From Desulfomarina profundi (GTDB lineage Bacteria; Desulfobacterota; Desulfobulbia; Desulfobulbales; Desulfocapsaceae): a stretch of DNA of 64,000 nt. Below, piece by piece: positions 50,025 through 53,301 of the stretch. Each line of letters opens with the position of its first letter. The first letter of the stretch is position 1. The notes beneath the pieces are model-generated. The model did not search any database and was not told the origin of the DNA. It saw only the letters and a list, made by a program, of their open reading frames with translations. Both the position numbers and the translations under genes were made by a program. The DNA lies in the NCBI RefSeq assembly GCF_019703855.1, contig NZ_AP024086.1, forward strand, positions 4,236,501 to 4,300,500, given 5' to 3'.

Positions 50025-50651
50025 GTGCTGGATAGATGGGCGTTGCAACTGGTGAAAAAGCCGTTGAATGCGGGAGCGGTTATCCTGGCTCGTCACAGTG
50101 TCAGTGCGGACTCCGTAACCGTGGCCGGTTTTGCTGTCGGGCTTCTTGCCCTGCCTGCTCTTTTTATGAAATTGTATTGGGTAGCCCTGGTCTGTATCCT
50201 GATAAACAGAGTAGCTGATGGGCTGGATGGGGCAATTGCCCGTATCCAGGGACCGACCGATGGAGGGGGATTTCTCGATATTACTCTGGATTTCATTTTT
50301 TACTCTTCAGTAGTTTTTGGCTTTGCACTGGCTGATCCTGAGCGAAACGGACTTGCGGCAACCGCTCTTCTCTTTGCTTTTGTGGGCACCGGGAGTAGTT
50401 TTCTGGCTTTTGCAATTATGGCAGAAAAACGTGGTCTGACAAATTTCAAATATCCCAACAAGGGTTTTTTTTATCTTGCCGGATTGGCTGAAGGAACAGA
50501 AACGTTGTGTTTTTTTGTTTTCTTTTGTCTTTTTCCCGGATTTTTTACTGAGTTGGCTTATACCTTTGCTGTTATCTGCATGATTACAGTGATTACAAGG
50601 GTGTCCGGAGGATACCTTGCACTAAGAAATGATGATTCCGGGACTGTTTGA
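50025..50651 (+). CDS. CDP-alcohol phosphatidyltransferase family protein
   Basis: 208 residues with the family signature D-G-x2-A-R-x8-G-x3-D-x3-D, here VADGLDGAIARIQGPTDGGGFLDITLD, and four to six hydrophobic helices. The family joins a CDP-activated lipid or sugar to an alcohol acceptor in the inner membrane; the exact product is not clear. The GTG start at 50025 follows GAGGG. The next gene starts within a few bases, so the two are co-expressed. Confidence 0.87.
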   Translation: MLDRWALQLVKKPLNAGAVILARHSVSADSVTVAGFAVGLLALPALFMKLYWVALVCILINRVADGLDGAIARIQGPTDGGGFLDITLDFIFYSSVVFGFALADPERNGLAATALLFAFVGTGSSFLAFAIMAEKRGLTNFKYPNKGFFYLAGLAEGTETLCFFVFFCLFPGFFTELAYTFAVICMITVITRVSGGYLALRNDDSGTV

Positions 50652-50655
50652 GAGT

Positions 50656-51836
50656 ATGACCGAAAAAAATGAAAGCAGAATAGATCGATCCATGAGTATT
50701 GTCGGAAAAGTCCGGAGCCTGGGTCATGTGGTGATCGAAGGAAAGGTGGAAGGAGATCTTGACTGTACAAGCATGAAGATTGTTCGGGAAGGAACATTAC
50801 TTGGTGATATTCATGCTGAAGAAATAGAGTGTTTTGGAACTATTGAAGGAAGAATTAAGACCCGGAAATTCATCATGAGAAAAGATGGTTGCCATACGGG
50901 TACTGTGGAAACAACAGAGTTGCGAGTGGAGCCTGGAGCATTTTTAGACTGTGCCCTGCACGATGGGGGAGAGGTTTGTCCTTCAGGTATTGAGAAAGGG
51001 GGGCGGGAGGTAGCTGAAACCGGGGTCTCTGGGGAGTCAGTTGTTGACTGGGAAAGGTTGGCAGCTGTTTTCGAAAGTAATGCCCAGCAATGTATCATGG
51101 AGGTTCCCTGGTCCGAAAGAAGGGAACTGCTTCATCAGATTCTGACTCTTCTTGAAAAGGAAAAGCCCCTGATTAAAATCACTGGTGATCCTGGAAGTGG
51201 TAAGAGTACACTGATCGCCAGGCTCAAGGAGGTTCTGCCAGATGAAACAGATTTGTTCATACTTGAGAAACCTGTCGGTTCGGTAAGAGATCTTCTTTCT
51301 GCAGTCGCGGATTATCTTCAACTGCCTGTACTCGCTGATGACAGGCAGCGGGATATTGTCGGGAAGATCAAAGGTGTCATTGCACCAGATGGATGTATTC
51401 GCAAAAAAATGGTTCTGGCTGTAGATGATGCCCAGCTGATGTATCCTGCAACAATGGAGGGGTTATCCGTCTGCTCACCAGCGCCTATGAGGGTGGGGAA
51501 GCGCTGGTGCAGATTATTCTGCTGGGAACTGGAGAAATGGAAGGGAAGCTTGTTCATACAACCCGTGAATATTTTGAGGATGAAACCAACTGTCTGCTGG
51601 CTCTTGAACCTCTCTCCATAAAAGATACTTCCGAGTATCTTCGTCTCTGTCTTCAGATTGAAGTGGACAGGGAGGACCTGAATCCTGTGGATCTCCTTCC
51701 TTTTGAAACCCTGAAAAAGCTGTATACCGCAAGTGACGGAAATATAAGGCTGATAAATAATCTTGTCGCCGGGGCGTTTCGCAGAGCTTCGCAATCGGGT
51801 TCTCTCTTTGTTGCAGTACACCATATTCATCAGTAG
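50656..51836 (+). CDS. Bactofilin-AAA+ (ExeA/GspA-type) ATPase fusion (one frameshift)
   Basis: About 393 residues. Residues 1-110 are a bactofilin beta-helix: MSIVGKVRSLGHVVIEGKVEG, GTLLGDIHAEEIECFGTIEG, and repeats of hydrophobic-Gly turns. A linker leads to an ATPase domain with Walker A ITGDPGSGKSTLIARL, Walker B MVLAVDDAQLM, and sensor-1-like IILLGTGEMEG, as in ExeA/GspA/MshM proteins. The frame breaks at GGGG 51459-51462; one more G restores MEGVIRLLTSAYEGGEALVQ and the end at 51836. Bactofilins polymerise without nucleotide; fusion to an ExeA-like motor is unusual. ExeA-like ATPases help place secretion or pilus machinery, so a scaffold-linked motor is a plausible idea. The start may be 50629. 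Confidence 0.78.
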
Positions 51837-53026: not shown

Positions 53027-53073
53027 TTTTTTAAGGTATGTATCTTCATGTGGAAGGAGTTTGGCGGAAAAAA

Positions 53074-53301
53074 ATGCGTAGAAAAACAAAAATAGAAATT
53101 GACTATCGAAACGATTGCTGAATCGGTTTTAAAGACGTGCGGGCACGTCTGAACAAAATGGCCACCGGCGAGGAATTTCATTTTATCTGTGACGGGAAAA
53201 TGGCTGATAAAATCGAGCGCATTATCTTGCTCAACGGTGGAGAAATATCTGCAAAAGATACCAGGTCCTATGGTGTCGTCATTTCCATTCGGAAAAAATA
53301 G
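53074..53301 (+). CDS. TusA-like protein with in-frame TGA, probable selenoprotein (Cys-Sec)
   Basis: Read through the TGA at 53119-53121 the frame gives 75 residues. It aligns with TusA/SirA proteins without gaps from the active Cys onward: C-U-I-G-F-K-D-V-R-A-R-L against the family C-P-x-P-V-x-x-x-x-x-A-L, then NKMATGEEFHFICD, and the end SYGVVISIRKK. The TGA directly follows the Cys codon (codons 15 and 16), so selenocysteine would sit where the family has Pro. Frame is the same on both sides. A SECIS-like hairpin starts 11 bases after the TGA. Start ATG 53074 (GGAAGGAG is 15 bases upstream) or ATG 53038. If not decoded, it is a pseudogene. Confidence 0.6.
53133..53150 (+). promoter_or_regulatory. 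Bacterial SECIS-like hairpin after the in-frame TGA
   Basis: AGACGTG (53133-53139) pairs with CACGTCT (53144-53150) around a CGGG loop; C-G closing makes it up to 8 bp. TTTT (53127-53130) and AAAA further out can add a lower stem. The loop begins 18 bases after the TGA and has the Gs expected for SelB binding; bacterial SECIS elements lie about 16-37 bases after the UGA. Confidence 0.55.

Follow-up and report, generated by a model that had tools for sequence, protein, structure and literature searches.

A conserved, probable selenoprotein of Desulfomarina profundi with a predicted TusA fold and a Cys-Sec active site

A short gene in the Desulfomarina profundi window (the whole stretch of 64,000 nucleotides that was analyzed) very probably encodes a selenoprotein that combines a TusA fold with a Cys-Sec active site. 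That the gene encodes a selenoprotein is strongly supported by a TGA codon found throughout its family, by a covarying SECIS hairpin, and by selA, selB and tRNA-Sec in the same genome. The gene is common, with matches in 82 of the 257 genomes of the window's order, and in these sulfate-reducer-type bacteria it apparently has been overlooked so far.

The frame from 53038 to 53301 on the forward strand contains a single in-frame TGA, directly after a TGC codon, and is otherwise open to its TAG, so that the same frame runs on both sides of the TGA as the preliminary description had claimed. Its end is where that description placed it. The likely start, judged from homologues, is the ATG at 53074 rather than 53038, because several homologues begin at the equivalent Met; with this start the protein has 75 residues. 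The gene is real and has the following features.

53074 to 53301, forward strand: selenoprotein gene, 75 residues with Sec as residue 16, stop codon TAG at 53299 to 53301; start picked from homologues.
53116 to 53118, forward strand: TGC, Cys residue 15, adjoining Sec; Cys in 136 of the 138 Sec members found by motif.
53119 to 53121, forward strand: TGA, the selenocysteine codon; TGA in 138 of 143 motif members and in 6 of 6 further members.
53133 to 53150, forward strand: SECIS hairpin, arms 53133 to 53139 and 53144 to 53150, loop CGGG at 53140 to 53143; limits from PMC13188914.
53054 to 53059, forward strand: AAGGAG, a possible ribosome-binding site read from the sequence, 14 nt ahead of the ATG at 53074, a spacing above the usual.

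The homologue family and its selenocysteine codon

With the single window protein as query, one close homologue (L002) was found among 204 stretches of genome contigs, and 11 genomes matched among 58 relatives searched. The order-wide count came from a profile search, and a search of the class likewise covered 257 genomes with 82 matching. Within the order, the matches fall in 26 of 69 genera and nearly all show the same TGA, on which ground a sequencing error was rejected. A sample of the phylum gave matches in 25 of 395 genomes, 21 of these outside the window's order; among the 25 matches listed, 24 contain one TGA, and the short, weak match in G343 has TAA. The class of G460 (18 of 55 genomes) and that of G575 (32 of 85) showed one TGA in all 18 and all 32 matches listed, and both searches partly overlap with that of the phylum. 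These tallies, in which the window's own genome is counted wherever a search covered it, come from the one phylum searched in depth. G119, a genome in a single contig, carries a family member. Plasmids gave no match to the window protein by tblastn, and among viral contigs 51 stretches fit a pattern and none was confirmed.

The Sec site could be read in 149 distinct members: 144 have TGA, four have Leu and one has TAA. A motif that leaves both active-site residues free found 143 of these, comprising 136 Cys-Sec, one Thr-Sec, one Ala-Sec, three Thr-Leu, one Ile-Leu and one Cys-TAA pair. The six members outside the motif (L079, L082, L084, L226, L227 and L236), which a recount added, are all Cys-Sec when read by eye. 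Two positions after Sec, 107 of 138 Sec members have G, 30 have A and 1 has P. Cys-containing orthologues, usual for selenoproteins but not required, numbered 0 of 149 in the one phylum searched in depth, with the recount included; the searches did not disfavor Cys forms, since every profile had Cys in the place of Sec.

Identical 48-nt sequences were counted once, and the members are related, which means that the counts are not independent events. Left out of them were matches cut by a contig end (G005 and G080:C155), short weak matches (G710 and G343), frameshifted copies (G229 and G230:C108), and G735, which is listed with one TGA. Stop-free matches in the order search consisted of the four Leu members and two incomplete sequences (G005 and G230:C108).

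We consider it extremely improbable that the TGA is a true stop, either in a broken TusA-like gene or between two short ORFs. The frame is indeed interrupted under translation table 11, and damaged copies exist: G082:C24 carries TAA, and G229 and G230:C108 are frameshifted, each showing a TGA behind a Cys codon when one frame is read. An additional TAA stands behind the hairpin of G154, a Cys-Sec member. Against this reading, the TGA occupies one identical codon in 144 of 149 members, the hairpin is conserved, and changes behind it look protein-like, with 63, 33 and 179 differences on codon positions 1, 2 and 3 in 10 close pairs; the pseudogene was rejected on these grounds. Random stops in related copies had been named beforehand as a sign against a selenoprotein, and the damaged copies are few.

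The four Leu members (G052, G060, G062 and G065) all belong to one genus, which is in the course of losing Sec. Their Leu codon is TTA, one base from TGA, in three and CTG in one, and their hairpins keep 5 of 7 pairs in one and 3 of 7 in three. A sister copy in G063 (Thr-Sec, TGA still present) keeps 5 of 7 stem pairs, and Cys-Sec is kept by G058, G064 and a second copy in G062. Sense-codon homologues, another sign that would have spoken against a selenoprotein, thus do occur, but only in this genus and with a weakened hairpin. In the TAA member (G082:C24) all 7 stem pairs are kept, and the same genome holds a second copy with TGA.

Three observations concern the diversity of the family. In the genus that is losing Sec, g33 (L013, L103, L133, L145 and L094), one genome combines Thr, TGA and a weakened hairpin, and four others combine Leu with a weakened hairpin. 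A distant branch (L082 and L084, motif D-S-R-K-D-C-U-K-G) still has the Cys-Sec pair, with 6 of 7 stem pairs kept, and could seed a search for wider relatives. In family f12, several genomes (for example, G074 to G079) encode two paralogues each, one of the DYRRDCUWG type and one of the DYRGDCUKG type, and the partners of the two may differ.

A check for Sec machinery, proposed in the preliminary description, turned up selA (634.6 bits), selB (364.5 bits) and tRNA-Sec (74.9 bits, over threshold) in the window's genome. Co-occurrence of selA with the family is uninformative because selA is nearly general in the order (214 of 257 genomes); it matched in 72 of 82 carriers versus 142 of 175 noncarriers (Fisher p 0.21). 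Nine of the ten carriers lacking a selA match are rated 63 to 93% complete, and two incomplete carriers (G004 and G158) gave neither a selA match nor a tRNA-Sec over the cut-off. The tenth carrier, G028 (L005, L014 and L169), is a genome with a completeness rating of 100% in which two family copies and tRNA-Sec occur, yet it gave no selA match.

The SECIS hairpin

The hairpin AGACGUG-CGGG-CACGUCU has 7 pairs, with a stem that begins 11 nt and a loop that begins 18 nt after the TGA. The bSECIS model, as given in the available part of a review (PMC13188914), allows a loop of 3 to 9 nt, a stem of 4 to 16 bp, a G in the first two loop bases, a distance of 16 to 37 nt from the TGA, and a minimum free energy (MFE) of at most -7.5 kcal/mol. 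The window hairpin lies within these limits (loop 4, stem 7, G at loop position 2, 18 nt from the TGA), and its folding energy is -12.4 kcal/mol in a 42-nt segment and -8.4 kcal/mol for the hairpin alone. The earlier proposal of a 7- to 8-bp hairpin with a G-rich loop at the bacterial SECIS distance is therefore borne out, by these limits and by conservation among homologues, as to its 7 bp and its loop; the 18 nt that it gave separate the TGA from the loop and not from the stem.

Taken by itself, the window sequence has a folding energy that is not distinguishable from that of shuffles (z -0.71; 41 of 200 shuffles as good); the evidence for a SECIS element sits in the homologues. An Rfam scan of the window at gathering scores returned 0 matches.

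Among the 138 Sec members found by motif, 7 pairs form in 124, 6 in 11, 5 in 1 and 3 in 2, and 945 of 966 stem cells are paired, a number that falls to 208 to 587 with the 3' arm shifted by 1 to 3 bases; the motif requires residues that overlap the stem, so these counts lean slightly upward. For a set of 111 distinct sequences, the paired stem cells number 760 of 777, against 169 to 469 in six controls with a shifted arm. The six members outside the motif have 7 pairs (four members) or 6 pairs (two members), and in one of them, the distant member L226, with the hairpin GAAGUA-AGUU-UACUUC at the usual place, an Asp-to-Glu change is matched in the other arm.

The innermost pair is formed by the third position of a Val codon, where the protein tolerates any base, and the second position of a codon that switches its amino acid accordingly: GTG occurs with GCA (Ala), GTA with TTA (Leu) and GTC with CGA (Arg). 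These two positions are paired in 100 of 103 sequences, where 10,000 shuffles gave a mean of 71.6 and a maximum of 82, and in 122 of 125 in a wider set. Codon choice is skewed in the hairpin alone, with CGT for Arg in 105 of 110 cases, AGT for Ser in 20 of 20 and TTA for Leu in 45 of 77; elsewhere in the genes, the same codons account for 15% of 350, 12% of 159 and 3% of 201, respectively. Of 138 Sec members, 137 have G at loop position 2, and in 114 the loop bases 1 and 4 are able to form a Watson-Crick pair. As far as sequence comparison can tell, the hairpin is maintained by compensatory changes. Since the codons that contain it change their amino acids along with it, the demands of the RNA have shaped the protein sequence.

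Folding of synonymous shuffles gave a weak signal, with a mean z of -0.63 versus -0.23 in a control segment and a codon pool taken from the same genes, and the best segment fold placed the loop elsewhere than 18 nt from the TGA in 21 of 112 sequences. In two DYRGHCU members, L011 and L089, only 3 of the usual pairs are left and an alternative 7-bp hairpin may form about 12 nt further on (predicted for both, but in a longer segment for L089 only), which suggests that the SECIS element has moved.

Fold and active site in relation to TusA

An AlphaFold2 model built from two sequences (the window protein and L002) had a pLDDT of 84.9, a pTM of 0.70 and the order E-H-E-H-E-E. In a Foldseek search of the PDB, the first four rows were TsuB and TusA, with E values of 1.1e-3 to 3.2e-3, none at or below 0.001; the fifth was an unrelated methylase chain (7.6e-3). 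VIA-align gave Z scores of 11.1 and 10.9 for TsuB, 10.0, 9.7 and 9.4 for TusA, and 9.5 for a SirA-like protein; below the TusA-type matches came the first unrelated chain at 8.4 and Alba-like and IF3-like rows at 7.8 and below. On a model from two sequences and a best Foldseek E value of 1.1e-3, the protein is predicted to adopt the beta-alpha-beta-alpha-beta-beta two-layer fold of the TusA family.

Sequence models gave a different picture. PF01206 did not match the window protein, although three other proteins of the same genome do match it, and 30 family members compared with Pfam, NCBIfam and PDB sequences produced chance-like matches only. An hhalign comparison with a 7-sequence TusA alignment was weak (probability 3.8%, P 0.011). 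By prediction, the protein has a TusA fold, yet it is no member of PF01206 as defined. The description as TusA-like is accordingly upheld by the fold (model and structural matches) and not by the sequence models. A gap-free match to the family, also part of the preliminary description, was rejected: the TusA Pfam model does not match, and, by hand count, TusA has one residue more between the D of D-x-R and the G that follows helix 1.

The window protein resembles TusA and SirA-like proteins (PF01206; E. coli TusA, TsuB) in its predicted fold, in a D-x-R-G before the active site, in a length of 70 to 80 residues, and in a nucleophile close to the N terminus of helix 1. It differs from them by the missing residue, by Sec for Cys, and by C-U-x-G/A/P for the active-site motif C-P-x-P, Cys being followed by Sec and not by Pro.

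How the two motifs, D-x-R-G-x-x-C-P-x-P in TusA and D-Y-R-G-D-C-U-x-G in the family, should be superimposed depends on the anchor. With D-x-R-G as the anchor, Sec aligns with the catalytic Cys; with a backward count from the helix-1 G, it is the family's Cys that does. We favor the register in which, by sequence, Sec would occupy the place of the TusA catalytic Cys with an extra Cys just before it. It is less probable that Sec replaces the Pro of C-P-x-P and that Cys 15 is the catalytic Cys, as first proposed. That register fits the hand count, which puts Cys 17 residues before the helix-1 G as in E. coli TusA; the D-x-R-G anchor and the global hhalign path, the latter with low confidence, set Sec on the TusA Cys instead. 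Sec also persists without a neighboring Cys in one Ala-Sec and one Thr-Sec member, the latter from the genus that is losing Sec. In either register, the Cys-Sec pair is at the TusA active site.

Possible function, gene neighborhood and novelty

We propose that SelB and tRNA-Sec would read the UGA as Sec, aided by the hairpin just behind it, to give a selenoprotein of about 75 residues that has the TusA fold and is probably cytosolic. Its Cys-Sec pair would sit at the N terminus of helix 1, the place of the TusA catalytic Cys. Sec would most likely be the nucleophile, forming an Se-S adduct with sulfane sulfur or sulfur derived from thiosulfate; the preceding Cys could resolve this adduct as a selenenyl-sulfide, and the protein might then act as a fast sulfur relay or thiol-redox partner. 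Cys18 of Metallosphaera TusA binds thiosulfate from tetrathionate, according to the available part of PMC4175335. A sulfur relay is, on the predicted model, a plausible but tentative function. The more specific reading, of a Sec-only family of TusA-fold sulfur carriers in which selenium is the relay atom (an Se-S adduct with the vicinal Cys resolving it), is possible, though we hold it with some doubt.

The main rival is a thiol-selenol redox switch or oxidoreductase, in which the Cys-Sec pair would cycle between the reduced form and the selenenyl-sulfide with no sulfur carried. Mammalian thioredoxin reductase is known to have such a vicinal pair, the pair is present in 136 of 138 Sec members, and none of the 20 neighbor proteins scanned came from a tus or dsr gene. 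The predicted fold and the position of the active site point instead to sulfur transfer, and two members keep Sec without Cys; we regard the switch as conceivable and somewhat doubtful. Binding or trafficking of a metal or metalloid (Hg, As or Cu) by the pair is unlikely. The available part of PMC13188914 ties many predicted selenoproteins to metals, and a PF03692 (CxxCxxCC) gene precedes the selenoprotein gene at four loci of a single genus; however, one Cys and one Sec make few ligands, and no resistance gene was found among the 20 neighbor proteins scanned of 232 ORFs called.

Function as a sulfur relay is argued from fold and chemistry because the gene neighbors vary. Among 21 loci (the window and 20 others), no gene cluster was common to more than 4, which is why context gives no function; the Pfam scan covered 20 of the 232 called ORFs and four window neighbors. 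Downstream in the window are an AsnC-type regulator and then genes resembling the glycine cleavage system (named by eye), relatives of which occur at locus L180 with the selenoprotein gene on the opposite strand. The CxxCxxCC gene lies just upstream in its four loci, and elsewhere the neighbors include helicase, YitT, metallo-beta-lactamase-fold, LysR and other genes.

The bacterial CU-motif selenoproteins in the available part of Table 1 of PMC13188914 (SaoL, SaoC, HgcA, MbdU, KCU-star/DUF466 and CopZ-like 2Fe-2S) share the adjacent Cys-Sec but have other domains, and 30 members of the new family match none of their NCBIfam 20.0 models. The same table includes a YeeE/YedE thiosulfate transporter with Sec. 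It belongs to one pathway with TsuB, which has the TusA fold, but is itself a membrane transporter. A selenium-linked SirA-like protein (PMC2432076, in part) likewise places a SirA/TusA domain, with a DsrE-like domain and next to selD, in selenium-using organisms. It is tied to selD by gene neighborhood and is not called a selenoprotein in the available text, whereas the window protein consists of one short domain, and its gene is distant from selA, selB and the tRNA-Sec gene.

None of the 119 families or subfamilies in Table 1 of that May 2026 review (PMC13188914, as available) is called TusA- or SirA-like. The family was not found described in open-access full texts, to the extent these were available, and an earlier unnamed mention is possible in PMC8318568, the accessible part of which names a Sec "sulfurtransferase" and further candidates from marine Deltaproteobacteria. 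For Desulfolithobacter dissulfuricans GF1, the predictor deep-Sep reported 22 known genes and 0 new ones (PMC12013277, 2025); according to the available part of that paper, selenoproteins that lack Cys homologues may escape deep-Sep, and every known selenoprotein now seems to have a Cys-containing homologue. It seems that the gene was missed because TGA is read as a stop and because predictors filter by Cys homologues (PMC12013277, in part), which are seemingly lacking here.

If our reading is true, a Sec-only family would be an exception to that 2025 statement, unless TusA itself is counted as such a homologue, and it would mark out, in Desulfobacterota-type bacteria, a branch of sulfur trafficking that depends on selenium. 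With Sec kept, or exchanged for Leu in one genus, and no Cys form shown, the family offers a clean natural case for why Sec is retained, and a 75-residue protein suits the question of whether selenium can be the sulfur-carrying atom.

Elsewhere in the window, a bactofilin-AAA ATPase gene (50629 to 51836, forward strand) looks split by a frameshift: the ORF at 50629 to 51621 contains bactofilin and AAA domains, and the ORF at 51507 to 51836, in another frame, reads by eye like the remaining ATPase.
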